From assembly GCA_030950105.1 (NCBI GenBank), contig JAUZRV010000074.1, forward strand, positions 1 to 32,471: 32,471 nt of DNA, read 5' to 3'. Below, piece by piece: positions 2,832 to 32,228 of the stretch. The notes below the pieces were generated by a model that worked only from the letters and a program-made list of their open reading frames with translations, was not told where the DNA came from and made no database searches. This DNA comes from Rhodobacterales bacterium. Its GTDB lineage: Bacteria; Pseudomonadota; Alphaproteobacteria; Rhodobacterales; Rhodobacteraceae. The position numbers were made by a program, and so were the translations under genes. Numbering within the stretch: the first letter of the stretch is position 1; each line of letters opens with the position of its first letter.

Positions 2832-2868
2832 AATGAAACGACAAAATGATACCAAGGGAGGTCTCAAG

Positions 2869-4605: not shown

Positions 4606-4645
4606 GCACTCCACTGTTGGGGGTGTCTGATTGCACCCTCAATTT

Positions 4646-4674
4646 AAACCGGGGCTTGCGGGTCCCGGTTTTTT
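4646..4674 (+). terminator. Rho-independent terminator/attenuator-like hairpin between glpV and glpS
   Basis: AAACCGGG (4646-4653) pairs with CCCGGTTT (4664-4671), followed by T-run TTTTTT; a weaker hairpin GGGTG...CACCC lies just upstream (about 4617-4642). Confidence 0.7.
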
Positions 4675-4716
4675 AGGCAGATTCCCCAATAATTACATCG
4701 TATTTGAAGGGCCGAA

Positions 4717-5787
4717 ATGGCGTTCGAAATCAAAAATATCACCAAAAAAGTCGACGGTCAGACCCATATCAAGCCTACAAGCCTGATTTTGGAGGCGGGG
4801 CATTTCAATGTTCTGCTCGGGGAAACCGGCGCAGGTAAAACGTCGCTGATCAAGCTGATGGCAGGACTTGATCGGGTGGCGTCAGGGCAGATTTTAATGA
4901 ACGGGCAGGATATTACCCGTTTAAGCACGCAAAAACGCAATATCTCGTTGGTGCATCAGTTTTTTGTCAACTACGCGCATATGACCGTTTTTGACAATAT
5001 CGCCTCGCCTCTCAAGGTGGCGGGCATGGCCAAATCAGAAATTGCAGGGCGGGTGGAAGAAGCCGCGGATATTTTGCAATTGCGCCCGTTTTTGGCGCGC
5101 CGACCCCATGAATTATCGGGCGGGCAACAACAGCGCTGCGCCTTGGCGCGCGCGATTGCCAAAGAAAGCAACGCTATTTTCCTCGACGAACCGCTGGCCA
5201 ATCTGGATTATAAGCTGCGCGAGGAGCTTCGCGAGCAATTGCCCGAACTTTTTGCCGGGCGCGGGGCCGTGGTTGTTTATGCCACCAGCGAACCGGAAGA
5301 AGCCCTATTGCTTGGCGGCAAAACGGTGTTGATGAATGACGGGCGGGTGACGCAATTTGGCACGACCGCTGAAATCTATCGAAATCCTCTTGATATTACC
5401 TCGGCAAAGGTGTTTTCCGACCCGCCGATCAACACCGCAACCGTGACCAAAAAAGGCGCAGAGGTGGTTTTGAATGGCACGATAAAGTGGGCACTGGACG
5501 GTGACGCGGCCAATTTACGTGACGGGGACTATGCGATGGCAATTCGTCCTAATGATGTGGCTCCGCTGCGCACCTCGCAATCGACCGTTGGCGTGACGGG
5601 GCAAGTGCAGGTGACAGAATTAAGCGGCTCTGAGAGCAGCGCGCACTTTAGTTTCGGGGCGCAAAAATGGGTGTCACTGGCGCACGGCGTGCATATTTAT
5701 GACATCGGTCAGCCGCGCGAATTTTTTCTTGATCCATCCAAGTGCTTTTATTTTGGCGCCGATGGGATGCTGGCGGCGCGGGGATAG
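4717..5787 (+). CDS. glpS: ABC transporter ATP-binding protein (glycerol importer, GlpS-like)
   Basis: Walker A-like 'GETGAGKTS', signature 'LSGGQQQRCALARA', Walker B 'NAIFLDEPL'; C-terminal MalK/UgpC-type regulatory region. Confidence 0.82.
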   Translation: MAFEIKNITKKVDGQTHIKPTSLILEAGHFNVLLGETGAGKTSLIKLMAGLDRVASGQILMNGQDITRLSTQKRNISLVHQFFVNYAHMTVFDNIASPLKVAGMAKSEIAGRVEEAADILQLRPFLARRPHELSGGQQQRCALARAIAKESNAIFLDEPLANLDYKLREELREQLPELFAGRGAVVVYATSEPEEALLLGGKTVLMNDGRVTQFGTTAEIYRNPLDITSAKVFSDPPINTATVTKKGAEVVLNGTIKWALDGDAANLRDGDYAMAIRPNDVAPLRTSQSTVGVTGQVQVTELSGSESSAHFSFGAQKWVSLAHGVHIYDIGQPREFFLDPSKCFYFGADGMLAARG

Positions 5788-5790
5788 AAT

Positions 5791-6873
5791 ATGGCACAGA
5801 TAACACTCTCCAAATTGCGCCATAGCTATTATCCCAACCCGAAACAGGCGGATGATTACGCGCTCAAGATGATTGATCTGGTGCTTGAGGATGGCGGTGC
5901 TTATGCGCTTCTCGGGCCTTCGGGATGTGGGAAATCGTCACTTCTCAACATCATTTCCGGCCTGTTGGTGCCGTCGGATGGGCGGATATTATTTGACGAA
6001 AACGATGTGACAACGGTGGCCCCAAGTGCGCGTAGCATTGCGCAAGTTTTCCAGTTTCCAGTGATTTATGACACTATGACCGTGTATAATAACTTCGCAT
6101 TCCCACTGCGAAATCAGGGCGTTGACGAAGCCCGAGTTGATGTGCGGGTGCGCGAAATTGCCGAGATGCTCGAGGTGACAGATCTGTTGGATAAACGTGC
6201 GGCAGGCCTGTCGCCGGATAACAAACAAAAGATTTCCATGGGGCGTGGATTGGTGCGCGAAGACATGAATGTGGTGATGTTTGATGAGCCGCTGACGGTG
6301 ATTGACCCGCATTTGAAATGGAAATTGCGCTCCAAGCTCAAGGAGCTTCATCAACGGGTGAAGGTGACGATGATTTATGTCACCCACGACCAGACCGAGG
6401 CGCTTACCTTTGCTGATCAGGTGGTGGTGATGCAGGATGGCGAGGTGGTGCAGGTGGGCACGCCGGTCGAATTGTTTGAACGCCCCGCGCACACATTTGT
6501 TGGCCATTTTATCGGGTCGCCCGGGATGAATATCCTTTCATGCGATGTGCGCGGCAGCGTGGCCTATTTTGACGGGATCGAAGTGCCGCTAGAGGGCGCG
6601 ATCAAGCCCGACCTGAACGGCAACACCGAGATCGGCATCAGGCCGGAATATGTGTCGTTTGGCACGCAAGGCATTGCGGCGACTGTGCGCAAAGTGTCCG
6701 ATGTCGGGCGTCATAATGTGGTCACGGTGATGGTTGGTGACACCAAAATCGCGGCGATTGTCAAAGGTGAAACTCCGGCGGTTGGTGACACGGTGCAACT
6801 GGTTTTTGAACAGGATCAAACGCGGCTTTATGTCGATGGTTGGCTGGCGAGCGAGAAAGGGGCAGGGCAATGA
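5791..6873 (+). CDS. glpT: ABC transporter ATP-binding protein (glycerol importer, GlpT-like ATPase)
   Basis: Walker A 'GPSGCGKSS', Walker B 'VVMFDEPL', 'IYVTHDQTEALTFADQVVVMQDG'; degenerate signature region 'LSPDNKQKISMGRGL'. Confidence 0.82.
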   Translation: MAQITLSKLRHSYYPNPKQADDYALKMIDLVLEDGGAYALLGPSGCGKSSLLNIISGLLVPSDGRILFDENDVTTVAPSARSIAQVFQFPVIYDTMTVYNNFAFPLRNQGVDEARVDVRVREIAEMLEVTDLLDKRAAGLSPDNKQKISMGRGLVREDMNVVMFDEPLTVIDPHLKWKLRSKLKELHQRVKVTMIYVTHDQTEALTFADQVVVMQDGEVVQVGTPVELFERPAHTFVGHFIGSPGMNILSCDVRGSVAYFDGIEVPLEGAIKPDLNGNTEIGIRPEYVSFGTQGIAATVRKVSDVGRHNVVTVMVGDTKIAAIVKGETPAVGDTVQLVFEQDQTRLYVDGWLASEKGAGQ

Positions 6874-7733
6874 AGACCCAAAACAATCGCGCGTGGTTAT
6901 TCGTGCTGCCGGTGCTGTTGCTGGTCGCGTTTAATGCGTTGATTCCGATGATGACGGTAGTGAATTATTCGGTGCAAGAGACCTTTGGCAACAACCTTTT
7001 TTTCTGGCAAGGGCTGGATTGGTTTGAAGGTCTGTTGCGTTCTGATCGGTTTCACGCAGCACTTGGGCGGCAATTTTTGTTTACCGGCCTGATCCTTGCC
7101 ATCGAAGTGCCGCTTGGAATTGCGATTGCGTTGGCGATGCCGCGACAAGGGGGGTGGGTGTCGGTGTGCCTCGTGTTGATGGCGCTGCCGATGTTGATCC
7201 CGTGGAATGTGGTCGGCGCGATGTGGAATATTTTCACGCTTCCGGATATTGGATTGCTCGGGTATTTCATCAATCACGTTTTGAATATTCCCTACGACAT
7301 GACGCAAAACCCGATTGCTGCATGGGTGACAATTGTGACGATGGATGTCTGGCACTGGACCTCGCTGGTGGTGCTTTTGTCTTACGCCGGTCTGGTTTCG
7401 ATCCCTGATGCCTATTATCAGGCGGCCAAGATCGACGGGGCGTCAAATTGGGCGGTGTTCCGGTATATCCAACTGCCAAAAATGAAGAACGTGCTGACCA
7501 TAGCCATCCTTTTACGGTTCATGGATAGCTTTAATATTTTCACGGAACCCTTTGTTTTAACAGGAGGAGGCCCGGGAAATTCAACGACATTGCTATCGAT
7601 TGATCTGGTGAAAATCGCATTGGGGCAATTTGATCTGGGACCGGCGGCGGCGATGTCATTGATTTATTTTGTCATCACTTTGCTGGTTTCGTGGTTGTTC
7701 TACACGTTGATGACCAAAGACGATTTGAATTGA
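6870..7733 (+). CDS. glpP: ABC transporter permease (glycerol importer, GlpP-like)
   Basis: ATGA overlap with glpT (ATG 6870); multi-TM; EAA motif 'AAKIDGASNWAVFRYIQLPKMK'. Confidence 0.82.
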   Translation: MKTQNNRAWLFVLPVLLLVAFNALIPMMTVVNYSVQETFGNNLFFWQGLDWFEGLLRSDRFHAALGRQFLFTGLILAIEVPLGIAIALAMPRQGGWVSVCLVLMALPMLIPWNVVGAMWNIFTLPDIGLLGYFINHVLNIPYDMTQNPIAAWVTIVTMDVWHWTSLVVLLSYAGLVSIPDAYYQAAKIDGASNWAVFRYIQLPKMKNVLTIAILLRFMDSFNIFTEPFVLTGGGPGNSTTLLSIDLVKIALGQFDLGPAAAMSLIYFVITLLVSWLFYTLMTKDDLN

Positions 7734-7741
7734 GGGTGGCC

Positions 7742-8539
7742 ATGAAAAAACGTTACATAATTACAACTGCTTACATCTTTTTCCTGATGTTACCAATCTA
7801 TTGGCTGGTGTCGATGAGTTTCAAGACAACGGGCGAGATCCTAGGGGGATTTTCCCTGTTTCCCCAAGAGTTTACCTTGGAGAATTACCGCACAATTTTC
7901 ACCGACCCGACATGGTATTGGGGGTATTTCAATTCGATATTCTATGTCACTCTAAACACGGTGATTTCGGTGTCGGTTGCGCTGCCGGCGGCCTATGCGT
8001 TTTCGCGCTATAGGTTCCTGGGCGATAAACAATTGTTTTTCTGGCTGCTCACCAATCGTATGGCGCCGGCGGCGGTATTTGCTTTGCCGTTCTTTCAACT
8101 TTATTCGGCGGTGGGCCTGTTTGATACGCACCTCGGCGTGGCGTTGGCGCATGCGTTGTTCAATGTGCCGCTCGCTGTGTGGATATTGGAGGGCTTCATG
8201 AGCGGGGTGCCCAAAGAACTTGACGAGACCGCCTATGTGGACGGGTATTCGTTCCCGCGATTTTTCACCACGATATTTTTGCCGACGATAAAATCGGGTG
8301 TCGGGGTGACGGCGTTTTTCTGCTTCATGTTCTCTTGGGTGGAATTGTTATTGGCGAAAACCCTCACGGCGGTCGACGCAAAACCGATTGCGGCGATCAT
8401 GACCAAGACCGCGTCGAGCGCGGGATACGAGCTTGGGCTTTTGGCGGCGGCGGGGACGTTGACCATCATTCCGGGAGCGATTGTGATCTATTTTGTGCGC
8501 AATAATATCGCCAAAGGATTTGCGATGGGGAGAGTATGA
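7742..8539 (+). CDS. glpQ: ABC transporter permease (glycerol importer, GlpQ-like)
   Basis: ATG 7742; MalG-like permease, EAA region 'DETAYVDGYSFPRFFTTIFLPTIKSG'. Confidence 0.82.
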   Translation: MKKRYIITTAYIFFLMLPIYWLVSMSFKTTGEILGGFSLFPQEFTLENYRTIFTDPTWYWGYFNSIFYVTLNTVISVSVALPAAYAFSRYRFLGDKQLFFWLLTNRMAPAAVFALPFFQLYSAVGLFDTHLGVALAHALFNVPLAVWILEGFMSGVPKELDETAYVDGYSFPRFFTTIFLPTIKSGVGVTAFFCFMFSWVELLLAKTLTAVDAKPIAAIMTKTASSAGYELGLLAAAGTLTIIPGAIVIYFVRNNIAKGFAMGRV

Positions 8540-8923: not shown

Positions 8924-9319
8924 GTGCGACAAAAGAAACACAGCACACTTTTGACCGAAGTGGAATTGGAATTCATGACCGCGGTTTGGGAAATAAACGG
9001 GGGAACCGTGCGCGAGGTGATGGCGGTGCTCGCGCCGGAGCGTAACCTTGCCTATACTTCGGCTTCGACCATTTTGCGAATACTGGAGCAAAAAGAGTTT
9101 CTGGTTAGCGAAAAATCCGGGCGTTCGTTTATCTATCGCCCCACTATTGAAAAGAGCAGTTATCAAACAAAGTCGCTTAATGATCTGTCGATGAAATTGT
9201 TTGACAATACGCCTTCGTCTCTTGTGGCGCGGTTGGTGGATGATGAAAATCTGACCGAAGATATGCTTGAGGAAATTCGGGCTTTACTGGATAGGAGATT
9301 AGGGAAAAATGCTGTCTGA
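8924..9319 (+). CDS. BlaI/MecI/CopY-family transcriptional repressor
   Basis: GTG start; winged-helix 'LTEVELEFMTAVWEINGGTVREVMAVLAPERNLAYTSASTILRILEQKEFL'; followed by an overlapping M56 peptidase gene. Confidence 0.85.
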   Translation: MRQKKHSTLLTEVELEFMTAVWEINGGTVREVMAVLAPERNLAYTSASTILRILEQKEFLVSEKSGRSFIYRPTIEKSSYQTKSLNDLSMKLFDNTPSSLVARLVDDENLTEDMLEEIRALLDRRLGKNAV

Positions 9320-10424
9320 GGCCCTCCTTAATGCTTATATCGACGCCAACATATTGTTGGGGGCCGGTTATTTGCTTTGGTCTTTTGCACGTTTTCTTAT
9401 TGTGCGGCTTGGGCTGCGCCGCGCCTATATCACACATCTCAAATTGCTTAACGGGGTGATGCTTGCCATCGTATTCTGTCCGATTGCAATTTATTTTATA
9501 ACGGCCTGGGTTGCGCAACCGACAATCAGTTTTTCGGACGTTGTCGTGGCGCAATATCTGGAAGGCAATGTTGATGTAACCGCGCTCCAGCTTGATCGTA
9601 TTCTCAAAATTCGCGAAGCCTTTGAACGTGATTTGGTAGACCTCGGGTCACCGCTCTCTATGGGGTTGGCAGTTCTCTTTATGACCGGCTTTATTGGCTT
9701 TGGTTTCAAGGTTTTGCGCAATGCGCTCCATTTGCGCCGCGCTCTGAATTCCTGTCGTCCGTGGCGAAAAATTGGCAGGGTGCAACTGTTGCTGAGCGAT
9801 CGCGCGCTGGTGCCGTATTCGACGCGCGGATTTGGCAAGCACTATATTGTGATGCCGACTGCGATGCTTGATCATTCTCATGATGTGCGTCTCGCGGTTG
9901 CGCATGAATTGCAACATTTTCGGCAGCGTGACGTGGAGTGGGCGATTGTTCTGGAGATCATGACGCCGTTTTTCTTCTGGAATCCGTTGTTTTTCATGTG
10001 GAAACGGGAAGTCATTCAATTGCGCGAATTTTCGTGTGATCAAAACCTGATCGCCCGAAACGGTGTCGATGTTCGCGCCTATTGCGAATGTCTATTGCGG
10101 GCGAGCCAGCGTAGCCTACGGGGCGCGCAGAATTTTACCATTGTCGCGCCAGCGGTGCCATTGGTAAAGACTGTGCCGCGCTCTGTAGGGGGCTTGGAAA
10201 GCCGAATTATGGCGCTTACCAGTGATCGTTCCGGTTGGTCGTCACGGCGGCTTTTCCAGATGACATTTTTCCCGTTGGCGCTGGCCATAATGGCGATTGG
10301 TGTCCTTATCCAGAGCCCTGCGGATTGGAGCCATGACCGTCTAATGCTATCGACCATTATCAATTTGGAACGCCTGGATATACACAACGCCGAGACCGCG
10401 CGCGCGAATTTCGGGTCGCGATAA
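9309..10424 (+). CDS. M56-family (BlaR1/MecR1-like) membrane metallopeptidase
   Basis: ATG 9309 overlaps the blaI-like stop; N-terminal TM helices; zinc motif 'HELQHFRQRDVEW' and 'LREFSCDQ'; no C-terminal penicillin-sensor domain. Confidence 0.82.
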   Translation: MLSEALLNAYIDANILLGAGYLLWSFARFLIVRLGLRRAYITHLKLLNGVMLAIVFCPIAIYFITAWVAQPTISFSDVVVAQYLEGNVDVTALQLDRILKIREAFERDLVDLGSPLSMGLAVLFMTGFIGFGFKVLRNALHLRRALNSCRPWRKIGRVQLLLSDRALVPYSTRGFGKHYIVMPTAMLDHSHDVRLAVAHELQHFRQRDVEWAIVLEIMTPFFFWNPLFFMWKREVIQLREFSCDQNLIARNGVDVRAYCECLLRASQRSLRGAQNFTIVAPAVPLVKTVPRSVGGLESRIMALTSDRSGWSSRRLFQMTFFPLALAIMAIGVLIQSPADWSHDRLMLSTIINLERLDIHNAETARANFGSR

Positions 10425-15500: not shown

Positions 15501-16805
15501 TTAAACAAACCGGTTCACATAATTTTCCAGTATTTCCTGCCTTCCAGACGATGGAACCGGATTAATATTGTCTCGCAGCACCCGTTCAGTGATGCTCTCT
15601 AGGGACGCCCCGGAGAGCATTTCTTGTGCGTCAGGGGTTTTCCAACCGGCATAGCGCGTCGCCTGTGCCGTCGCCAATCCGCCATCCATCATCATAGCAG
15701 CTGCGGCTTTGAACCCGCGCGCGCAAATATCCATGCCGCCAACATGGGCGGCAATCAAATCCACCGGATCAAGCGATTGGCGGCGTAACTTTGCATCAAA
15801 ATTGGTGCCACCGCTGGTAAACCCGCCCGCGTTCAGGATGTGATAATAGGCGAGGGCCACTTCGGGCACATTGTTCGGGAATTGGTCGGTATCCCATCCC
15901 GATTGGTAGTCATTCCGGTTCATATCAATAGATCCAAACACATCGTTGGCAACCGCCACCGCAATTTCATGTTCAAAAGAATGTCCCGCCAATATTGCAT
16001 GACCCTGTTCAAGGTTGAGCTTCACTTCACCTTCAAGCCCATATTTTTGCAGGAAACTATAACAGGTCGCGGCATCATAATCATATTGATGTTTTGAGGG
16101 TTCCTGCGGCTTTGGCTCCATCAGGATCGCGCCTTTAAATCCGATTTTATGTTTGTATTCGAACACCATATTAAGGAACCGGCCCATGTGGTCCATTTCG
16201 GCGCGCATATCGGTATTGAGCAGAGTTTCGTAACCTTCGCGTCCCCCCCAAAGCACATAATTTTCACCACGCAGTTTATGGGTAGCATCCATGCAGGTTT
16301 TAACGGTTGCGGCACTATAGGCAAAAACATCAGGATCGGGATTGGTCGCCGCACCTGCCATAAAGCGGCGATTGGAAAACAGGTTAGCCGTGCCCCAGAG
16401 CAGGCGAGTATCGCAGTTTTCCATTTTGGCGGCAAAATAATCGACGATTTCATTGAGGTTGCGGGTGCTTTCGGCAAAATCGGCCCCTTCGGGGCGCACA
16501 TCGGCATCATGAAAACAGAAAAACGGCGCGCCAAGAATATCAAACATCTCGAACGCCACATCGGCTTTGTGTCGGGCGTGGTCCATCGTGTCGCCAAACC
16601 ACGGGCGTTGGAATGTTTCACCACCAAACGGGTCGGTGCCGGGCCAGGCGAAAGAGTGCCAATAGGCGACGGCAAAACGCAGATGGTCGCGCATCGGTTT
16701 GCCCATGACCATCTCGTCGGCGTTGTAATGTTTGAAGGAAAGGGCAGAGTTGCCGTCCTGGCCTTCATATTCGATCCGCGTAATATCGCCAAAAAAATCG
16801 GTCAT
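15501..16805 (-). CDS. xylA: xylose isomerase
   Basis: 434 aa; '[12 protein letters not shown]', '[17 protein letters not shown]', '[15 protein letters not shown]', '[17 protein letters not shown]'. Confidence 0.95.
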
Positions 16806-16806
16806 A

Positions 16807-18270
16807 TCAGTGTCCTTTTGGGGCCGGATAGGCCGATTTGAAATGTTGGTATTTTGCGTGAAATGGTGCGGTCATTTCCGTTACAGGCAATATGGTTTCG
16901 GCAATTTGCGGAGGCGTGCAGACGTCGTTTGCAGCCGCTTTTGTTGCCGCCATAAGGCCGAGCCGCGCCGCGCCTAGGGCGGCCCCGAAATCGCCGGCAA
17001 CAGGAATATCAACCGGAATATCGAGAATTGTGGCGATGGCTTTAAGCCAGTAACGGGATTGCGCGCCGCCACCCACCGCCAATACCCGTTCGATATTAGT
17101 GCCCGCACGGTGCAAAGCGGCCAAATTGTCGGCAAAGGCAAAGCCGACACCTTCGATAACGGCCCGGGTGAGGCTCTCTCGGGTATCATTATGGGACAGC
17201 CCGAGAAAACTGCCGCGAATTTTTGCGTCGTTGTGCGGGGTGCGTTCCCCGCCGAGGTATGGTAAAAACATTGCGTTTCCGGGGGGGCGCAAACTGTCCC
17301 CCAATGTGGTGGTAAGCGCTTCGGGGGACTTTCCGGTGATTTTCCCATACCATCCCAAAGAGTCCACGGCCGACAGAATAACGCCCATTTGGTGCCAACG
17401 ATCAGGCAGCGCATGGCAAAACGTATGGACCGCACTTTCCGGGTTCGGCAAATATGAATCATTGGCCGCAAAAACAACGCCCGATGTGCCCAATGACAAA
17501 AATGCCTGACCCGCTTTGATCACGCCCATTCCTATCGCCGAGGCGGCATTGTCACCGGCCCCCCCCGCCACGATAATGCCTTTGGGAAGGCCCCAGAGAT
17601 CCGCCAATACATCGCGCAATATTCCGCCTTCTGCGTTGCCCTCGACAAGGGTAGGCATTTGCGCGCGTGTCATTTGGGATGCCCGCAAAAGAGCATCCGA
17701 CCAATCACGGGTCTCCACATTGAGCCAGCTTGTTCCGGCGCTATCCGACATGTCCGAAATCGTTTCGCCCGTCAGCCACAAACGTAAATAATCTTTTGGT
17801 AGCAACACCTTGTTGATATTTTCAAAAATCTCCGGCTCATGGTGTTTCACCCACATGAGTTTTGGAGCGGTAAAACCGGGAAAGACAATATTCCCCGAAA
17901 TTTCTCGAAAACCGGGTTGGGCATCAAGAGCCGCGGCCTCGTCGAAACTTCGGGTATCGTTCCATAAAATACAGGGTCGCAAAGGCTGCCCCATGCGATC
18001 AATCAGTGTCGCACCGTGCATTTGCCCAGAGAGACCGATACCGTGCAAAGCGCCCATTTCGACAGGGAAATCCCGTGTAAGTTGGTTAAAAACCGCCTTG
18101 GCAGCGGTGATCCATCTTTCCGGGTTTTGCTCGGACCAGCCTTCGTTTGGCCGCTCTACCGTTAAAGGCGCGTTGGCAAAGCCGATGTTGCGCCCTTGTG
18201 AGTCGATCAACATCCCTTTGAGGCCGGATGTGCCCAGATCAAGGCCAAGATACACGCTGCGATCCCCCAT
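16807..18270 (-). CDS. xylB: xylulokinase
   Basis: FGGY kinase '[17 protein letters not shown]', '[13 protein letters not shown]', 'GGGAQSRYW'; ATG at 18270 (track start 18321 is TTG). Confidence 0.93.
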
Positions 18271-18323
18271 TCCCCAAGACGCCAAGATTGCGCGGTTGCA
18301 ATCTTTCTTTCTGAATGGCAAAA

Positions 18324-18346
18324 TTTATTTTGATGAGCAAATTAAA
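18324..18346. promoter_or_regulatory. candidate ROK operator site 2: TTTATTTTG-ATGAG-CAAATTAAA
   Basis: 20 of 23 positions identical to the perfect palindrome at 22559-22581; 8 of 9 arm positions complementary; between xylB and the divergent di-heme gene. Confidence 0.6.
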
Positions 18347-19667
18347 TAGATATAGATATTGCGGTTCTGCCGTCCTAATTGTTGCGATTGCGGGCATTTT
18401 ATCATCCCTAGCGAACGCCGGAGATCGGCCAAAATTCCCCCCCGCCAATTTTGCCAACGCGCCGCGGGCAAACGTCGCCCTTGGCCAACTGTTGTTTTAT
18501 GACAAGATCTTAAGCGGCAATCGCAATATTGCCTGCGCGACCTGTCATCACCCAAAATTCGGAACATCGGACGGGGTTTCATTGGCGTTGGGTGAAGGGG
18601 CGACAGGTCTTGGAACCGCGCGTCGTGTTGATCCCGAGGCTGTCCCGGAGCAGCGTGTCGGGCGTAATGCGCCTGCTTTGTTCAATCTCGGGGCCGCAGA
18701 ATTTACGTCGCTGTTTCATGATGGCCGACTTGAACGGGATGCTGGTGGGGCGGGTGGGTTACGCACGCCTCTGGCCGCTGAAATGGCGGAAAAATTCAAC
18801 AATGTTCTATCGGCGCAAGCGATGTTTCCGGTGTTGTCTGGCGATGAAATGGCGGGGCAGTATTCGGAAAATGACGTGTCCAAAGCGGTGCGCAAGGGGC
18901 TTTTGGCACAGACGGGCGGCGCGTGGGATATTATTGCTTTGCGGGTTGATGAAATACCCGAATATCGCAGGGCGTTTGATGGCGCTATCGGAAAGCGGCC
19001 GGTAAAATTCACCGATATCGCCAATATGATTGCCGATTTTATTGCATTTGAATGGCGCGCGGACCAAAGCCCCTTTGACCGCTATTTGGCAGGGGGCACT
19101 TTGTCGGTCGACGCGGCAAAAGGGTTGGATTTGTTTTATGGCAAGGCGGGATGCGCCACCTGTCATGCGGGCCGGTTTCAAACCGATCACGGTTTCCACG
19201 CCATTGCCATGCCGCAAATAGGGCCGGGGAAATCGGCCCGTTTTGAAGGTCACAATCGTGATATCGGAAGGATGCGGGTCACAGGTGATCCTTCGGATAT
19301 ATATCGGTTCCGAACACCGTCGTTGCGCAATATTACGGCCACCGCGCCCTATGGCCATGATGGTGCCTACGCGACGTTGGAGGCGGTGTTGCGCCACCAT
19401 CTTGATCCGGTAAACGCGCTTTATTCTTATGACCGGACGCAGGCAGTTTTACCGGCACTATCGGGTGCACAGGACTGGGCTATTCTTGAGGATGCAAATG
19501 AAATGGCGCGCATTGCACAGGCCAATGAACTTGCGCCAATAGGGTTGGAGGACCACGAAATTAAGGCGTTACTGACATTTTTACAGGCGCTTACGGATGA
19601 TGTTTCTTTGGTCGGGAGAATGGGGGTTCCCAACACCGTGCCAAGTGGCCTGCCCGTATCGGATTGA
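18333..19667 (+). CDS. exported di-heme c-type cytochrome, MauG/MbnH/bacterial CCP family
   Basis: Signal peptide 'CGSAVLIVAIAGILSSLANAGD'; two CxxCH motifs 'IACATCHHPKFG' and 'GCATCHAGRF'; 'FHDGRLERD', 'RFRTPSLRNITATAPYGHDGAYATLEAVLRHH'; start 18333 or 18315. Confidence 0.85.
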   Translation: MSKLNRYRYCGSAVLIVAIAGILSSLANAGDRPKFPPANFANAPRANVALGQLLFYDKILSGNRNIACATCHHPKFGTSDGVSLALGEGATGLGTARRVDPEAVPEQRVGRNAPALFNLGAAEFTSLFHDGRLERDAGGAGGLRTPLAAEMAEKFNNVLSAQAMFPVLSGDEMAGQYSENDVSKAVRKGLLAQTGGAWDIIALRVDEIPEYRRAFDGAIGKRPVKFTDIANMIADFIAFEWRADQSPFDRYLAGGTLSVDAAKGLDLFYGKAGCATCHAGRFQTDHGFHAIAMPQIGPGKSARFEGHNRDIGRMRVTGDPSDIYRFRTPSLRNITATAPYGHDGAYATLEAVLRHHLDPVNALYSYDRTQAVLPALSGAQDWAILEDANEMARIAQANELAPIGLEDHEIKALLTFLQALTDDVSLVGRMGVPNTVPSGLPVSD

Positions 19668-19690
19668 ATTCTGTTAAAAAAATCATTTAA

Positions 19691-21247
19691 TCACAATGGA
19701 TTGATAGCCAATGCTGATGCGTCACGTGATATACGTAATACTTGGTTGGTTGCAACTTTCTGCCAGTGAGAAACAGATTGATCGGGCCAGATCATTCTGA
19801 TTTCGACTGTTTTTGCATCGCCCAACCCAAAGTGGGCAAATGTGGTACTGCCGCTTGCGTGTCCGCCACCGATGGTGATTTCACGCGCCCAAATTTGTTC
19901 TCCATCCCGGACCTCGATCCAGCCGCCAACGACACCCGAATTGGCACCCGTTTGCCGGACATCAAGCAACAGCCAGCGGCCATTTCCATTGGTCACATTT
20001 TGATAAATTTCGATGTTGTCGTTTCGATTTACCACTGCGAGATCAAGGGCACCATCAAGATTGAAATCCACCAGAGCGGCGCCGCGTGAACGCGTCAAAG
20101 TCGCAATTCCCGCCACGAGGCCGTGTTCCTCAAATACGCTATCTGGTCGCTGGATCAACAGATTATTCGGGTCGGCCATCGCGCTGTCGGGCATTTGATC
20201 GACGTTGCCTTTTGCAATGAAAACATCGTCGCGCCCGTCGTTGTCAACGTCGCCAAATTCAATGTGCCAGCCGGTCGAGGGCCGCCCGTCGCCGCCCGTA
20301 TATGGGCGGTGCGCGGTGGATCCACGCCCATAGGCCGCGTCGTGATAGGCGGGTCCGTTTTGGTCGGGATCGCGCATTTGCAACTTTTGATCGCCCATGG
20401 ATGTGAGGAAAATTTCGGGCAACCCATCACCGGAAATATCCCGGCTGGCGATGCCCATGCCCCAAATACTGTAATTCTTCCAACCTTCTTTCGCGGAATA
20501 GAGAAATGGCTCCGGAGTCAGCGCCCATAATTGTTCACCGCCTTCACGCACATAATAATGCCGGTCGTTGCTAATCCGCAAATCTTGGCGGCCTTGGCGA
20601 TTCCAATCGGAAAACAGCATCGAAAGCGGGCAATGCGCGGGCAGCAAAGGCGTTGTTTTATATCCGGTTCGGGTTGGCCGGCTAAGAAAATTTTCGTCAC
20701 AGGCCTCGAACGGGCCTTCGGGGTCATTGCGGTCCACGTAATTGCCAATCGCAAGGGTTGGCCGCTGGTTTTCGCCTTCCCAAGTTGCGGAAAATGCAGT
20801 GGTCCAACGCGCGGATTGATCCAGACCATCCGTCGTAAATTCGGTAAATGAGCAGTCCGCGCCACCTTGCAAAAGTTTGTTTTCACCTACCCGCATCACA
20901 AACAAATCGAGCAGACCATCATTGTCAAAATCAAACGGATATGCGCCGGTCACATTGGTCAAAGCCAGCGGTTTCGGGGTGTCCGAAACAAACATGACCG
21001 CCGCACCACGCGTGTTTGATGTATTGCGCAAGAGCATGGCGGGGGCCTCGCCACCGGCGACAAATAATTCAGGAAAAAAATCACCATCACAATCAAAAGC
21101 GGCAACGCCTCCGCCGACGAAATATTCCCAACCGCCCGTGTATTGATGGGAAAGACCTAAAACCTCCGCCCTGTTTTCAAAGCGTACTTGCGCGTGCAGC
21201 GGGGAAGTGAAGACAACCAACAGGCACGCAAGTGTTCTAAACGACAT
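19691..21247 (-). CDS. exported FG-GAP/VCBS repeat beta-propeller with C-terminal ASPIC/UnbV domain (CRTAC1-like)
   Basis: Signal peptide 'MSFRTLACLLVVFTSPLHAQ'; repeated Ca-type motifs DCDGDFFPE, DFDNDGLLD, DISGDGLPE, DVDNDGRDD, DFNLDGALD; C-terminal 'GWIEVRDGEQIWAREITIGGGHASGSTTFAHFGLGDAKTVEIRMIWPDQ'. Confidence 0.85.
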   Translation of the reverse strand: MSFRTLACLLVVFTSPLHAQVRFENRAEVLGLSHQYTGGWEYFVGGGVAAFDCDGDFFPELFVAGGEAPAMLLRNTSNTRGAAVMFVSDTPKPLALTNVTGAYPFDFDNDGLLDLFVMRVGENKLLQGGADCSFTEFTTDGLDQSARWTTAFSATWEGENQRPTLAIGNYVDRNDPEGPFEACDENFLSRPTRTGYKTTPLLPAHCPLSMLFSDWNRQGRQDLRISNDRHYYVREGGEQLWALTPEPFLYSAKEGWKNYSIWGMGIASRDISGDGLPEIFLTSMGDQKLQMRDPDQNGPAYHDAAYGRGSTAHRPYTGGDGRPSTGWHIEFGDVDNDGRDDVFIAKGNVDQMPDSAMADPNNLLIQRPDSVFEEHGLVAGIATLTRSRGAALVDFNLDGALDLAVVNRNDNIEIYQNVTNGNGRWLLLDVRQTGANSGVVGGWIEVRDGEQIWAREITIGGGHASGSTTFAHFGLGDAKTVEIRMIWPDQSVSHWQKVATNQVLRISRDASALAINPL

Positions 21248-22493
21248 TTTTCTTAACGCCTTGTAGTTCTGTGTTAATTACACCTTCTATGGCATAGGCC
21301 GCGGCGCCCATTGCCCACATATGGTCGCTCCATTTATGGACCCTGACATCAGGCGGAGGGCCGCCAAATTGCACAATAGAGTTTCGCATATCTTCGATAA
21401 CATCAGCGTCATAGAGAAAGTCGTATTGCATGCGATCCCCCGAAAGGATGATCAGTTCAGGGGCGAAAATGTTTATGACATTGGCAAGCCCCAGCGCAAA
21501 CATGCGCCCCGCACGCCGAAATATCGACAGTGCGATCAGATTTCCATCACGGGCTTCGGCAACCAGTTTTTGCATGCGGATTTCGGTGCTGGTGGGGTGG
21601 TGAAATTGTTCGCTTTTAGGGTTGGTCATGATACTGTTTGCCTCGCGAAGCAGCGCATAATCGCCGACATATGCCTCAAGACATCCACGTTGCCCGCACC
21701 GGCATAACGCACCGTCCAGCTGCACTTTTGTATGGCCCAATTCTGCGCCACTGCCGTTGGTGCCACGAATAAGTTTGCCATCAATAACGATGCCCATACC
21801 AACGCCTTGTTCTATGGTAATGACGATAAAATTCCGGGCCGTTTTGCCAAGGCCGAATTGTTGCTCGGCCAGTGTCACCAGATTGGCGTCATTTTCGACA
21901 AACACATTTATACCGAGGGTCGACTGAAGCATATCCCGCAACGGCACGTCCCGCTCGGAAAGTGTCGGGGACCACCGTATGATGCCTTCAAGCGCATCAA
22001 CAATACCCGGCAGGCCGATCCCAACGCCCGACAGGTCAGAGATCGAATAACCATTTTTATCAAGGCCTTGCCACAATGTCGTGCAGATGAAATCACAGGT
22101 TTGTTGGGCGGTCTGCACATCAAACGGTGTGGGAACCGAATATTCGGCAACGCGGGTACCAACAAAATTCACGATGACCAAAGTGGTTGTCTTGCCCGAA
22201 AATTTGATACCTGCCACAAGGTGCGCTGCACCGCGTAACTGTAAATTGACGCGGGGGCGGCCGCGTTTGGTATTGGCATTGGCGGGGCTAAATGCGGGTT
22301 CGGGGGGGATCTCCTCAAGCAGCCCCCTTAGGATCAGGTCGGCCGTAATGCTGGTGACCGTTGCCGGACTTAAACCCGTCGCATTTGCAATATCTATGCG
22401 CGCAACCGGCGCTGAATTCCGGATGGTGGATAGCACTGCCTTTTTGCCTGAGGTGCGGTTGCCGGGCAAAGCCTCAGTCGGGCCATTTATCAT
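21237..22493 (-). CDS. xylR: ROK-family transcriptional regulator (probable xylose regulator, XylR-like)
   Basis: N-terminal wHTH 'VLSTIRNSAPVARIDIANATGLSPATVTSITADL'; ROK motif 'CRCGQRGCLEAYVGD'; ATG at 22493 with AAAGGAA RBS; divergent from xylF. Confidence 0.82.
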   Translation of the reverse strand: MINGPTEALPGNRTSGKKAVLSTIRNSAPVARIDIANATGLSPATVTSITADLILRGLLEEIPPEPAFSPANANTKRGRPRVNLQLRGAAHLVAGIKFSGKTTTLVIVNFVGTRVAEYSVPTPFDVQTAQQTCDFICTTLWQGLDKNGYSISDLSGVGIGLPGIVDALEGIIRWSPTLSERDVPLRDMLQSTLGINVFVENDANLVTLAEQQFGLGKTARNFIVITIEQGVGMGIVIDGKLIRGTNGSGAELGHTKVQLDGALCRCGQRGCLEAYVGDYALLREANSIMTNPKSEQFHHPTSTEIRMQKLVAEARDGNLIALSIFRRAGRMFALGLANVINIFAPELIILSGDRMQYDFLYDADVIEDMRNSIVQFGGPPPDVRVHKWSDHMWAMGAAAYAIEGVINTELQGVKKNVV

Positions 22494-22546
22494 TATTACG
22501 TTCCTTTGGCGTTCGCGGTGTCGAATGGTCAATTCCGGCATGGGGC

Positions 22547-22593
22547 AGTATTGCACTATTTAATTTGATTACCAAATTAAAATACCGCATAGT
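22547..22593. promoter_or_regulatory. divergent ROK/xylF promoter pair with operator site 1 (TTTAATTTG-ATTAC-CAAATTAAA, 22559-22581)
   Basis: Perfect 9-5-9 palindrome; plus strand TTGATT-N17-CATAGT (22565-22593); minus strand TTGGTA-N17-AATACT (22575 to 22547); both -35 elements inside the operator. Confidence 0.65.
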
Positions 22594-22669: not shown

Positions 22670-23695
22670 ATGAAAAAAATAGGATTTATAGCCGCGGCTG
22701 TTTTGGGATTTGGTCTGGCGACTTCCGCTATTGCAAAAGATCAGATCATTGGCGTGAGCTGGTCAAATTTTCAGGAAGAACGTTGGAAAACGGACGAAGC
22801 CGCGATGAAAGCAGCCATAGAAGCCAATGGTGACACCTATATTTCAGCAGACGCACAATCTTCGGCAGCCAAGCAATTGACCGACGTAGAGAGTCTCATT
22901 GCGCAGGGCGCAAATGCGTTGGTGATTTTGTCGGTTGATTCCGGTTCCGTTGGTGCCGCAGTGGATGCCGCTGCAGCAGAGGGAATTCCGGTCATCGGCT
23001 ATGATCGCCTGATCGAAGATGAACGCGCTTTCTATCTTACTTTTGACAACAAAGAAGTCGGGCGGGTCATTGCGCGTTCGATTCTGGCGGCTGTGCCGAT
23101 GGGCAATTATGCGATCATCAAAGGTGACAAAGGTGATCCCAATGCGGCCTTCCTTCTTGAAGGGATGATGGAAGTGATCGGCGCGGATGTCGATGCGGGG
23201 GAAATTAAAATTGTTGGCGAAGCGTTTACCGACGGATGGAAGCCATCCAATGCGCAGAAAAACATGGAGCAAATCCTGACTGCGAATGACAACAAGGTTG
23301 ATGCGGTCCTGTCGGAAAATGACGGCATGGCCGGTGGTGCCATCGCGGCACTTGCCGCACAGGGCATGAACATACCTGTGTCGGGGCAAGATGGTGATCA
23401 CGCGGCTCTTAATCGGGTGGCGCGCGGCACGCAAAACACATCTGTTTGGAAAGATGCACGGGTTCTGGGCGCAGCGGCAGGCAATATTGCGTCGGCATTG
23501 GCAGAGGGCGGCATGATGGAGAGCATCGAAGGCGCGGTAAAATGGTCGGGCGGGGCGAAAGGTGTTGAAATGAACGCCATTTTCCTAGCGCCAACACCGA
23601 TTAGCGCGTCAAATATCAACGTGGTTATTGATGCCGGTCATATCGCAAAAGACAAAGTTTGCGAAGGTGCAATGGCTGGCGTTAACGGCTGCTAG
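22670..23695 (+). CDS. xylF: xylose ABC transporter substrate-binding protein
   Basis: ATG 22670, GGGAGG RBS, signal peptide; 'GVSWSNFQEERWKTDEAAMKAAIE', 'DRLIEDERAFYLTFDNKEVGR' characteristic of XylF. Confidence 0.92.
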   Translation: MKKIGFIAAAVLGFGLATSAIAKDQIIGVSWSNFQEERWKTDEAAMKAAIEANGDTYISADAQSSAAKQLTDVESLIAQGANALVILSVDSGSVGAAVDAAAAEGIPVIGYDRLIEDERAFYLTFDNKEVGRVIARSILAAVPMGNYAIIKGDKGDPNAAFLLEGMMEVIGADVDAGEIKIVGEAFTDGWKPSNAQKNMEQILTANDNKVDAVLSENDGMAGGAIAALAAQGMNIPVSGQDGDHAALNRVARGTQNTSVWKDARVLGAAAGNIASALAEGGMMESIEGAVKWSGGAKGVEMNAIFLAPTPISASNINVVIDAGHIAKDKVCEGAMAGVNGC

Positions 23696-23785: not shown

Positions 23786-25111
23786 GTGACAAAACCGTCT
23801 TCCACCCGTGGGCCTTCCAAATCCAATGTTGAGGGCCTTTTTCCCCGGTTTTTGCGTGCTACCGAGATCGATGCCCGCCTGCTCGGAATGATCGCGGCAT
23901 TGGTGTTGATCTGGGTCGGGTTTCACTATTATGGAAAAATTGTAAACGGGTATGGCGCTTTTCTAACCCCCCGAAATCTATGGAATCTATCGGTCCAAAC
24001 GGCCTCAATCGCGGTGATGGCGACGGGTATGGTTCTGGTGATTGTAACGCGCCATATTGACCTGTCTGTCGGCTCAATCCTCGGGTTTACCGCGATGTCG
24101 ATGGCGATAATTCAGGTGTGGATTTTACCTGACTTGATTGGTCTCGGGCACCCCATGATTTGGGTGATTGCGGTGGTGTGCGGCCTCGTAATTGGCGCTT
24201 TGATTGGCGCACTTCACGGCTATCTCATCGCGTATTTGGGTATTCCTGCGTTCATCGTCACCCTTGGCGGCCTGTTGGTGTGGCGCGGCGCCGCGTTTTT
24301 ATTGGCGCGAGGGGAAACTATTTCGCCGGTGGATGCAACGTTTTCCAAATTGGGCGGCGGGCCGTATGGCGCGGTTGGGGCCACGACAAGCTGGATCATC
24401 GGGATTGTCGCTTGTGTGGCCGTGTTGTTGATGTTGTGGCAGGGGCGGCGGCAAAGAAAACGCTTTGACTTCCCGTTGCGCCCGCTCTGGGCCGAGGGGT
24501 TTTTGGCGACAGTTGGCTGTGGATTGATTATTGGATTTGTGGTGCTGGTCAATTCCTATCCGTGGCCAAAGGGGATCGTGAAAAAATATGCTGCGGCCAA
24601 TAATATTGACACTCCGATCAACGAGATATTCATAAGCCATGGCTTTGCTATTCCGGTTCTAATCCTGATCGGGGTGGGAATTATCATGACGATCCTGACC
24701 ACCCGCACCCGATTTGGCCGCTATGTTTTTGCGATTGGCGGCAATCCGGACGCTGCCGAATTATCGGGGATCAACACACGTTGGGTGACGCTCAAGGTGT
24801 TCGCCTTGATGGGCACATTATGCGCGCTTGGTGCGGTGATTTCGAGCGCCCGACTGGGATCGGCAACCAACAATTTGGGCACGTTGGATGAACTATATGT
24901 TATTGCGGCAGTGGTGATTGGCGGCACGTCTTTTTCGGGGGGGATCGGCACAATATACGGCGCTATTTTGGGCGCGTTGGTGATGCAGGCGTTGCAAACC
25001 GGAATGATATTGATCGGCTTTGACGCGGCCATTCAACAAATGGTTGTCGGTGCGGTTTTGGTTGCTGCGGTTTGGATTGATACACTTTATCGCCGCCGCT
25101 CGGGTGTTTAG
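23786..25111 (+). CDS. xylH: xylose ABC transporter permease
   Basis: GTG start with AGGAGA RBS; 'VIVTRHIDLSVGSILGF', 'AIGGNPDAAELSGINTRW' CUT2 permease motifs. Confidence 0.9.
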   Translation: MTKPSSTRGPSKSNVEGLFPRFLRATEIDARLLGMIAALVLIWVGFHYYGKIVNGYGAFLTPRNLWNLSVQTASIAVMATGMVLVIVTRHIDLSVGSILGFTAMSMAIIQVWILPDLIGLGHPMIWVIAVVCGLVIGALIGALHGYLIAYLGIPAFIVTLGGLLVWRGAAFLLARGETISPVDATFSKLGGGPYGAVGATTSWIIGIVACVAVLLMLWQGRRQRKRFDFPLRPLWAEGFLATVGCGLIIGFVVLVNSYPWPKGIVKKYAAANNIDTPINEIFISHGFAIPVLILIGVGIIMTILTTRTRFGRYVFAIGGNPDAAELSGINTRWVTLKVFALMGTLCALGAVISSARLGSATNNLGTLDELYVIAAVVIGGTSFSGGIGTIYGAILGALVMQALQTGMILIGFDAAIQQMVVGAVLVAAVWIDTLYRRRSGV

Positions 25112-29393: not shown

Positions 29394-30884
29394 ATGACCA
29401 ATAAATTTTCTCGACGCGTTTTTTTAGGTGGATGTTTGAGCGGACTGGGCGGAGCGGCATGGGGCGCGCCTCTCACGGTTTCGTTGCGCCCAAAATTGCG
29501 TCCCCGAACGATCGTCGAACAAGCCATAACCGGCGCCGACGCATTGGTGGAAAATGCAGGACTTGGCGGGCGCGTGGGGTTCGTCGTTGCGGATGTCAAA
29601 ACCGGCCTCATTCTGGAGAGCCGCAACGCCACCATCGGGCAACCACCGGCGAGTGTGGCCAAGGCCGTTACCGCGCTTTATGCGCTGCAATCCCTTGGCG
29701 CGAAACATCGGTTCCAGACCCGCCTTATCGCCACATCAGCGGTGAAGAACGGTATTCTCAGGGGGGATTTGATATTGGAGGGCGGGGGTGACCCGACGCT
29801 TGATACCAATGATTTGGCCAACCTCGCTGCTAAACTCAAGGCCGCTGGCGTGCGCGAAGTGCGGGGGCGGTTTCTTGTTTCTGGAGGCGTCCTGCCTTTT
29901 CAACGCTCTATTGATCCCGAGCAACCTGACCATCTTGGGTATAACCCGTCGGTGTCGGGGTTAAGTCTTAATTATAATCGGGTCTATTTTGAGTGGAAGC
30001 GGCAATCAAATGGATATGGGGTGTCAATGGATGCCCGTTCCGACAAATATCGCCCCTCTGTTCAGGTGGCGCGGATCAAAGTCGTCAAGCGTAATTTGCC
30101 GGTCTATACCTATAAAGACCGCGGTGGGCGCGACGAGTGGACAGTCGCGCAAGGGGCGCTTGGCAAGGGGGGGGCGCGCTGGCTGCCGGTGCGTAAACCC
30201 GAACTGTATTCCGGGGAAGTATTTCGGTCTTTTGCGCGGTCACACGGGATTGTTCTAAAGGCCCCCAAAGTAAGCAAGAAATCCGCGAGCGGCACGGTGG
30301 TAGCGCGAGTTTCAAGCCCGGAATTGCGTGACATTGTGCGCGGGATGTTGAAATATTCCAATAATCTAACCGCTGAAATGATCGGGCTTTCTGCGACCGT
30401 GAAGCGGGGTAAACGGGCCAATACCCTTAGGGCGTCTGCCGCAGAAATGAGTGCCTGGGCCAAATCTGCGTTGGGAATGAAAAACGTGCGGTTGGTGGAT
30501 CATTCAGGGCTTGGCGAGGCGTCGCGGATTAGCGCGTCGGACATGTCCTTGGCCTTGGTCAAAGTGCACCAAAATGGCGTTCTCAAGCCGATTTTGAAGG
30601 CTATCCCCCTGCGATTTTCCGATGGAAAGGTGAATAAAAATCACCCCATCAAGGTGCGCGCAAAAACCGGAACCTTGAATTTTGTTAGTGCTTTAGCAGG
30701 ATATATGACGGCGGAAGATGGCACCGAGCTTGCTTTTGCTATTTTTGCGTCGGACATGAAGAAAAGATCCGCAATCAAACGTGCCGACCGTGAAAAGCCA
30801 CAAGGCGAGAGGGGCTGGAACAAGCGTGCAAAGAAATTGCAACAGGCCCTGATCGAGCGTTGGGGCGCGCTTTACGGGCGCTAG
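29394..30884 (+). CDS. dacB: D-alanyl-D-alanine carboxypeptidase/endopeptidase (PBP4, S13 family)
   Basis: SxxK 'PASVAKAVTALYAL', SxN 'YSNNLTAEMIG', KTG 'RAKTGTLNFVSALAGYM'; N-terminal signal-like segment. Confidence 0.9.
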   Translation: MTNKFSRRVFLGGCLSGLGGAAWGAPLTVSLRPKLRPRTIVEQAITGADALVENAGLGGRVGFVVADVKTGLILESRNATIGQPPASVAKAVTALYALQSLGAKHRFQTRLIATSAVKNGILRGDLILEGGGDPTLDTNDLANLAAKLKAAGVREVRGRFLVSGGVLPFQRSIDPEQPDHLGYNPSVSGLSLNYNRVYFEWKRQSNGYGVSMDARSDKYRPSVQVARIKVVKRNLPVYTYKDRGGRDEWTVAQGALGKGGARWLPVRKPELYSGEVFRSFARSHGIVLKAPKVSKKSASGTVVARVSSPELRDIVRGMLKYSNNLTAEMIGLSATVKRGKRANTLRASAAEMSAWAKSALGMKNVRLVDHSGLGEASRISASDMSLALVKVHQNGVLKPILKAIPLRFSDGKVNKNHPIKVRAKTGTLNFVSALAGYMTAEDGTELAFAIFASDMKKRSAIKRADREKPQGERGWNKRAKKLQQALIERWGALYGR

Positions 30885-30947: not shown

Positions 30948-32228
30948 CTATCGGTAACGTGCGGGTGTGCTGGCGCGAATGTTGCGCCGGATGTCAGAGA
31001 GGCGCCAATTGGTTAGTTTATGCAGCGCGCCTGCCTGTGCTTTGATGTTGCGACGGGTTTGGGCAACATATTCACGCCCTGCATCACATGTAATTTCACC
31101 GTCGTAGGGGACGTTCATGATATAACGGCCCTGAAAGTTTTCGCGGTCATCCGTGACCCGCATTGCGAGGTGGCGGGGAAAAGAGTTTTGGTCGTATTGG
31201 AGGTGCAGGCGGGTGACAAAGACATCTTCGCCGGGATTGCGGTTGCCCGGAGCGAGCCAGTTCACCCCAAGTTCCTTAAGCTCTTTTTTGGAAAGAGGAT
31301 CGGCGGCGCATGGGTCGCACCACGCCATATCCCAAGCGTATTCGGTGACCACGGTATTGGGTTTTGCAGCGCGTTTGAACATGGCATGATAGAACTGCCC
31401 AAACACGTCGCGCACATACAACGGCACGGTCACGTTTGAGGGGATGCGAATATTTCGGTAGTTGGAGGCCTCGACGCGCCCCTTGCGGGTCAGGGTCATC
31501 ACCAAAAGGTCTTGTGTGGTTTGACCATTGAGTTTGCCCAACTGGATCGGCAGCATAAAGTCGCGTGACCGGAAAGTCATTTGCAGCGGTTTGAGATCCC
31601 GTTTTTCGCCCGCGGAAAACCGTTTGAGATTGACCCGGGCGACAAAGAATTTCATGCCCATGCGAACATAATCGTCCAACACAAATTGGGCACCATCGGG
31701 GAGTATATACCCTTCGCCAGTCAGAAAGGTGACGAGACCATCGGATTGCGTGGCGGAAAGGATGGCGATGTCATAGTCGCCGACCGCATACTCGGCCTTG
31801 ATCGTGACGCCGAGGGCGGCGGCACCACGTTGACGTGCGGTGCGGCCAACACCATCGACAGAAGGCATCGGTTCGACCAGATATTCGATTGGTGGTTCGC
31901 AGGGATCGGTGTCGCGGTATTCGACAAGACGGGGGGCGCTATAGGCATCAAGATGGGTGACGGTTTTGGGATTTACCACGCGTATCTGATTGCGAGACAG
32001 CACCTTTGGGGTGGGGACGATCATGGCGAAATCGCTTGCCGATCCGCTATAATCCGACGACATCGTAATGACCGAGCGGTTATTGTTCCGAACATAAACA
32101 ACTTTGGATGCCTGATTGTAAAGTTCGCCATCGGCGCGTGCGACATAGAATCCGCAAAAAGCCGAAACCTGCAAAGGGGTCAGTAGAAGGAAGGCGAAAA
32201 TCGCGGAACGCAGCTTTTTAATGGGCAT
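30948..32228 (-). CDS. DUF2330 domain-containing exported protein
   Basis: Signal peptide followed by 'CGFYVARADGELYNQASKVVYVRNNNRSVITMSSDYSGSASDFAMIVPTPKVL', matching the DUF2330 N-terminus. Confidence 0.8.
   Translation of the reverse strand: MPIKKLRSAIFAFLLLTPLQVSAFCGFYVARADGELYNQASKVVYVRNNNRSVITMSSDYSGSASDFAMIVPTPKVLSRNQIRVVNPKTVTHLDAYSAPRLVEYRDTDPCEPPIEYLVEPMPSVDGVGRTARQRGAAALGVTIKAEYAVGDYDIAILSATQSDGLVTFLTGEGYILPDGAQFVLDDYVRMGMKFFVARVNLKRFSAGEKRDLKPLQMTFRSRDFMLPIQLGKLNGQTTQDLLVMTLTRKGRVEASNYRNIRIPSNVTVPLYVRDVFGQFYHAMFKRAAKPNTVVTEYAWDMAWCDPCAADPLSKKELKELGVNWLAPGNRNPGEDVFVTRLHLQYDQNSFPRHLAMRVTDDRENFQGRYIMNVPYDGEITCDAGREYVAQTRRNIKAQAGALHKLTNWRLSDIRRNIRASTPARYR

Follow-up and report, generated by a model that had tools for sequence, protein, structure and literature searches.

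Two near-identical 23-bp palindromes in the window, as we call the whole stretch of 32,471 nucleotides from a Rhodobacterales bacterium analysed here, lie with the gene of a ROK-family regulator in a conserved locus for the uptake and catabolism of xylose (Table 1). As reconstructed from the sequence, a repressor of the XylR kind encoded by the ROK gene would, with high probability, act on both palindromes and control xylFHG, the ROK-CRTAC1 transcript, xylBA and the gene of a MauG-like di-heme enzyme. What appears to be new is the content of this regulon, namely a conserved exported orphan pair, the MauG-like di-heme enzyme and CRTAC1, apparently under xylose control across Rhodobacteraceae and Roseobacteraceae.

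Table 1. Genes and candidate control elements of the xylose locus, by position in the window
Feature	Position	Strand	Basis and remarks
xylA, xylose isomerase	15501..16805	-	TIGR02630 656 bits (cut-off 533)
xylB, xylulokinase	16807..18270	-	TIGR01312 556 bits (cut-off 380)
Operator 2 (candidate)	18324..18346	none	divergent xylB/di-heme gap; holds the di-heme ATG; 29.5 bits; counterparts in L169 (TTTAATTCGATGACAAAATTAAA) and L181
MauG/MbnH-like di-heme enzyme with signal peptide and two CxxCH motifs, 444 aa	18333..19667	+	PF03150 1e-33; fold; motifs
CRTAC1-type secreted beta-propeller (FG-GAP, UnbV/ASPIC), 518 aa	19691..21247	-	11-bp overlap with the ROK gene
ROK-family regulator, very probably XylR-type, 418 aa	21237..22493	-	PF00480 6e-53; winged HTH in orthologs; RGRP linker; zinc/sugar motifs
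Operator 1 (candidate)	22559..22581	none	ROK/xylF gap; perfect 9-5-9 palindrome; 34.0 bits; kept in relatives' ROK-xylF regions
xylF promoter (putative)	22565..22593	+	-35 TTGATT (22565-22570) inside operator 1; 17-bp spacer; -10 CATAGT (22588-22593)
xylF, D-xylose-type binding protein	22670..23695	+	TIGR02634 371 bits, slightly below the cut-off of 390
xylH, sugar ABC permease	23786..25111	+	syntenic in relatives
xylG, sugar ABC ATPase, short single-domain, 252 aa	25118..25876	+	syntenic in relatives

What can be said about the nature of the two palindromes? On re-reading the sequence, both were found as an earlier sequence-only reading had described them: site 1 reads TTTAATTTG-ATTAC-CAAATTAAA, with all nine arm pairs symmetric, and site 2 reads TTTATTTTG-ATGAG-CAAATTAAA, with eight of the nine symmetric, the two being identical at 20 of 23 positions. 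Both are AT-rich, and two matches at up to three mismatches turn up in one of 100 shuffled windows (chance expectation of such matches, 0.05), so that one might think of chance palindromes or of structural elements such as terminators. However, the sites have no GC stem as terminators would, and the palindrome is rare in shuffles, occurs nowhere else in the genome and recurs at the same positions across dozens of genera; this footprinting in relatives rules out chance or a terminator, to which we assign practically no probability.

The palindromes are also confined to the xyl genes. We searched the organism's own genome (3.21 Mb in 350 contigs, 99.6% complete) by pattern with mismatches, using the reversed pattern as a control. 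In these 3.21 Mb, no place besides the two sites matches at up to two mismatches, and the number of places with three mismatches is the same as in the control, which makes the motif specific to the xyl locus; the two extra three-mismatch places (C292, C310) were accordingly dismissed. Equal frequency of the motif at unrelated loci, which the sequence-only reading had named as an outcome that would speak against operators, is thus not what is seen genome-wide. That it noticed no comparable third copy in the window is likewise borne out, as the next-best place reaches 11.1 bits against 34.0 and 29.5; this place (2773-2795) precedes an unrelated ABC system and was rejected as a site, about 0.5 such places being expected by chance.

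These scores derive from relatives only. The matrix was built by palindromic EM with random starts, applied to the intergenic stretch between ROK and xylF in relatives, the window sequence being left out, and it converged on TTTAATTTGATAATCAAATTAAA, the same palindrome as in the window. Absence of the motif from orthologous promoters, the other outcome named as adverse, did not materialise either: counting related genomes as well, so that these are not independent events, of 147 distinct ROK-xylF intergenic regions, 89 contain the palindrome with up to two mismatches (shuffles, 0.07%), as do 48 of the 84 regions upstream of xylB (shuffles, 0.00%), and seven of the 147 ROK-xylF regions hold solely sites with more than four mismatches. 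Scanned over 3.0 Mb of neighbourhood, the matrix gives 254 matches with 15 bits or more, of which 252 are situated upstream of xylF, xylB or xylA; the remaining two are upstream of a galM-di-heme gene pair (L080) and of CRTAC1 (L122).

Which protein would read these sites? ROK is the regulator kept beside the site across more than 140 loci, and of 150 family genomes 82 have an ortholog. The 24 xyl-linked palindromes with up to one mismatch in these 150 genomes all belong to genomes with a ROK ortholog, while the 68 family genomes that lack one have no xyl-linked site at this threshold. Palindromes apart from xyl genes (up to one mismatch; G014, G038, G056, G057, G071 and G138) number seven against seven in the control and were set aside. 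Furthermore, loci reduced to ROK and xylBA, with neither CRTAC1 nor the di-heme gene, retain the site (L208, L244, and weaker in L210), which points to ROK as its reader. Some other alphaproteobacteria use xylose regulators that are not ROK proteins, and the binding of ROK to the sites is deduced from sequence; hence a different regulator, for instance of the LacI or GntR family, might bind here while ROK controls something else. Given the joint retention of ROK and site, down to the loci with only ROK and xylBA, and the blank in the genomes without ROK, we deem such a regulator very unlikely. The geometry of the site argues in the same direction, as its half-sites, ATTT-N7-AAAT, are spaced exactly like the experimentally tested XylR operators of Bacillus and Paenibacillus, GTTT-N7-AAAC (PMC9104551). 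The proposal of the sequence-only reading that the ROK protein uses both palindromes as operators has therefore gained support from genome specificity, orthologous promoters and co-occurrence with the ROK gene, and we have little doubt in taking them as predicted ROK operators.

The regulator itself has the features expected of a sugar sensor. Its ROK domain is clear (PF00480, 181 bits against a cut-off of 22.9), and an N-terminal winged HTH (HTH_24) is detected in all 14 aligned ROK proteins, albeit weakly in the window protein (E 0.009). Invariant in the alignment are the Arg/Gly-rich linker RGRP at 77-80 and the residues E251-x-G253-H254 and C264-x-C266-G267-x-x-G270-C271-x-E273, whereas residues 95-100 read GIKFSG where DxGxT would stand. 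ExGH and CxCGxxGCxE constitute the sugar/zinc motif of the family, and DxGxT is the phosphate loop of its kinases; this combination of ROK domain, HTH, linker and sugar/zinc motif without DxGxT thus denotes a sugar-sensing regulator rather than a kinase. As in ROK-family XylR proteins, palindromic operators lie upstream of the xyl genes and near the regulator's own gene, and very probably the protein is an XylR-type, D-xylose-responsive autorepressor. Orthologs were also found in 80 named loci, chiefly of Rhodobacteraceae and Roseobacteraceae (Ruegeria, Phaeobacter, Shimia, Sulfitobacter), with some in Hyphomicrobiales (Maritalea, Cohaesibacter).

In a second ROK branch, whose genes are laid out as xylFHGBA (L085, L087, L094, L099, L100 and similar loci), the operator is shifted (TTTATTTTGACA..., T versus A at position 5). 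Joint change of site and protein would lead one to expect such a shift with the branch, but kinship alone could explain it too. Within the operator of this branch, TTTATTTTGACAACTGAAATTAA, GACA is nearly invariant and yields a perfect -35 element, TTGACA.

The flank of operator 1 indicates how repression might be exerted. In 145 aligned regions, the flank on the xylF side keeps an A at position 8 and a T at position 12, counted from the site. The two match bases 2 and 6 of a -10 element that lies 17 bp from an in-site TTGACA or TTGA; as this -35 element, TTGACA stands in 52 and TTGA in 112 of the 145 regions, always at one and the same point within the site. For the window, we infer the xylF promoter to be TTGATT-17-CATAGT; a sigma-70 consensus scan at both sites returned nothing above its cut-off, this putative promoter included. 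With its -35 element inside the operator, ROK would cover the element, the usual repression by occlusion. Without D-xylose, or a close derivative, a ROK dimer on operator 1 would thus cover the -35 element of xylF and face its own gene, shutting off xylFHG as well as the ROK-CRTAC1 transcript, while ROK on operator 2 would silence xylBA to one side and the di-heme gene to the other, blocking initiation at xylB and keeping polymerase from starting at, or reading through into, the di-heme gene. Xylose in the sugar pocket of ROK would then free the operators; D-xylose is the probable effector because of the gene content and the known XylR proteins. So constituted, the regulon would comprise uptake (XylFHG), catabolism (XylA, XylB), the regulator and two exported proteins, the di-heme enzyme and CRTAC1.

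Are these two exported proteins genuine members? The usual layout among relatives of the window's ROK branch consists of an operator followed by xylB, xylA, in some cases an aldose epimerase gene (galM), and the di-heme gene, which converges on CRTAC1 and ROK; beyond these follow a further operator and xylFHG. Normally, then, the di-heme gene closes an xylBA operon that is headed by an operator. The window departs from this layout by an inversion of xylBA, which L169 and L181 share; these three loci form a clade with G019 (support 99/93), whose contig is too short to tell, so that a single event explains the inversion. It is through this inversion that site 2 came to separate xylB from the di-heme gene, and the operator still abuts the latter. 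The location of site 2 given by the sequence-only reading holds, with the refinement that the di-heme ATG (18333) is inside the site.

One might object that the sites serve xylFHG, ROK and xylBA only, with CRTAC1 and the di-heme gene as bystanders and the latter silent from operator 2. The di-heme start codon within the site and the lack of a recognisable di-heme promoter are in line with this, yet in many genera the gene ends the operator-led xylBA operon and moves along with it: where the xylBA-di-heme block has relocated, 38 kb from ROK in L110 and to another contig in L116, it has kept its own operator, and in L080, where xylBA is missing, the operator stands ahead of the epimerase-di-heme pair. 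As for CRTAC1, its gene overlaps that of ROK by 11 bp, making a common transcript very likely. ROK and CRTAC1 occur in 82 genomes each and together in 75 (odds ratio 93), and in 60 of these 75 CRTAC1 follows the ROK gene on the same strand within 500 bp. Even outside the family, three of five cases (L257, L258, L260) show a CRTAC1 relative beside xylFHG or xylBA, set against loci with ROK and xylBA that lack both genes (L208, L244) and genomes in which the CRTAC1 relative is distant from xyl genes (L120, L121). On balance we consider the role of bystanders improbable and CRTAC1 and the di-heme gene, judged by their conserved place in the locus, likely members of the regulon. In some genomes (L112, L113, L118, L119), the ROK ortholog is absent, or a distant ROK protein is present instead, and CRTAC1 nevertheless adjoins xylFHG; here the link of CRTAC1 with xylose outlives the regulator.

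Taken as a whole, the regulon put forward by the sequence-only reading, xylFHG, xylBA, the di-heme gene and ROK-CRTAC1, is upheld by the sites and by conservation of the locus, the weakest link being that site 2 would drive the di-heme gene in this genome. The only in-frame starts of this gene are 18333 and 18315, in or just before operator 2 (18315-18346 for starts and site together), and no Shine-Dalgarno sequence precedes either. An in-frame ATG is likewise found inside the operator in L169; L181 has a normal AAGGAG-ATG just after it. In the window, the di-heme mRNA is possibly leaderless or controlled by a roadblock, and we lean towards expression of the gene from operator 2 in this genome.

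The products of the two genes can be assigned to broad classes. The di-heme enzyme combines a CCP_MauG fold with two CxxCH motifs; its haem sites (C68-C71-H72 and C274-C277-H278) are invariant in the alignment, and a fold search places the predicted structure closest to MbnH (6e1c), MauG and cytochrome c peroxidases (CCP). As it remains far from the equivalog cut-offs for MauG (106 vs 444) and MbnH (122 vs 363), we file it as MauG-like only; TIGR03981 scores 259 vs 340, and the similarity to the hydrazine synthase gamma model is weak (E 1e-6). In CRTAC1, an FG-GAP propeller with UnbV_ASPIC is evident from PF13517 and PF07593, both above cut-off, and its model is a confident beta-propeller (pLDDT 87) that best matches murine CRTAC1 (9etn, TM 0.73). 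The model also weakly matches a sugar enzyme, the fungal aldos-2-ulose dehydratase 4a7k (TM 0.52, 10% identity); many unrelated propellers are among its matches too. Among the other products of the locus, XylG is a single-domain protein in the window as in relatives, where the curated XylG model describes a tandem protein of 500 aa.

Of the 66 genomes with both a di-heme and a CRTAC1 gene, 53 have the two adjacent and convergent. The idea that CRTAC1 always needs the di-heme enzyme was rejected, since CRTAC1 stands without a close di-heme gene in 16 genomes, and we do not put the two forward as a strict enzyme-substrate pair. Speculatively, they could work together in the periplasm as a redox module induced by xylose: the MauG-like enzyme would mature CRTAC1 by oxidation or exchange electrons with it, and CRTAC1 would act on xylose or a xylose-containing compound before or during uptake by XylF; we regard this as a possibility of rather low likelihood.

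How does this system relate to known ones? A ROK XylR with palindromic operators is of a kind established in Bacillus, Paenibacillus and clostridia (PMC2873477, PMC9104551). Like its counterparts there, the window regulator is a ROK protein with an N-terminal HTH whose gene adjoins xyl genes, with palindromes of NTTT-N7-AAAN spacing in a divergent intergenic region and operators both at xylA/xylB and at the regulator gene. Unlike them, it belongs to an alphaproteobacterial branch with the operator TTTAATTTG-N5-CAAATTAAA, and its predicted regulon takes in the xylFHG ABC transporter together with CRTAC1 and a MauG-like di-heme enzyme. The XylR of E. coli, an AraC-family activator, controls xylFGH and xylAB; it shares these xyl targets with the window ROK but is an unrelated protein that activates from different sites. 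A MauG-fold di-heme enzyme gene beside that of an exported partner recalls the MbnH/MbnP and MauG systems, although the partner here is a CRTAC1 propeller rather than MbnP and the scores stay below the curated cut-offs. A parallel is offered by the hydrazine-synthase-like clusters of clades I-III, in which genes for a MauG-like di-heme subunit and CRTAC1 FG-GAP proteins stand side by side; as far as the accessible part of that report describes them, these clusters differ from the window locus in having neither xylose genes nor a ROK regulator (PMC12758564).

Our literature search, outside of which most subscription journals fall, found no paper on a ROK XylR regulon in Rhodobacterales, nor did the searchable papers hold a prior tie of CRTAC1 or MauG-like di-heme proteins to xylose. 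RegPrecise may list XylR regulogs for alphaproteobacteria. An operator-defined regulon would link bacterial CRTAC1 and MauG-like di-heme enzymes, of which the former and most of the latter have no assigned role, to the uptake and catabolism of D-xylose. This link spans Rhodobacteraceae and Roseobacteraceae and some Hyphomicrobiales, and it is testable in tractable strains, for instance of Ruegeria pomeroyi or Phaeobacter. For xylose regulation in this ecologically major marine group, an operator matrix is now at hand; we found no paper describing one.

Elsewhere in the window, a sugar-type ABC transporter operon (2833-8539) is immediately followed by a BlaI/CopY-type repressor paired with a BlaR1-like M56 membrane protease (8924-10424), with no beta-lactamase gene adjoining the pair. 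The gene of a DUF2330 protein (30948-32228) adjoins that of a DacB/PBP4 peptidase (29394-30884).
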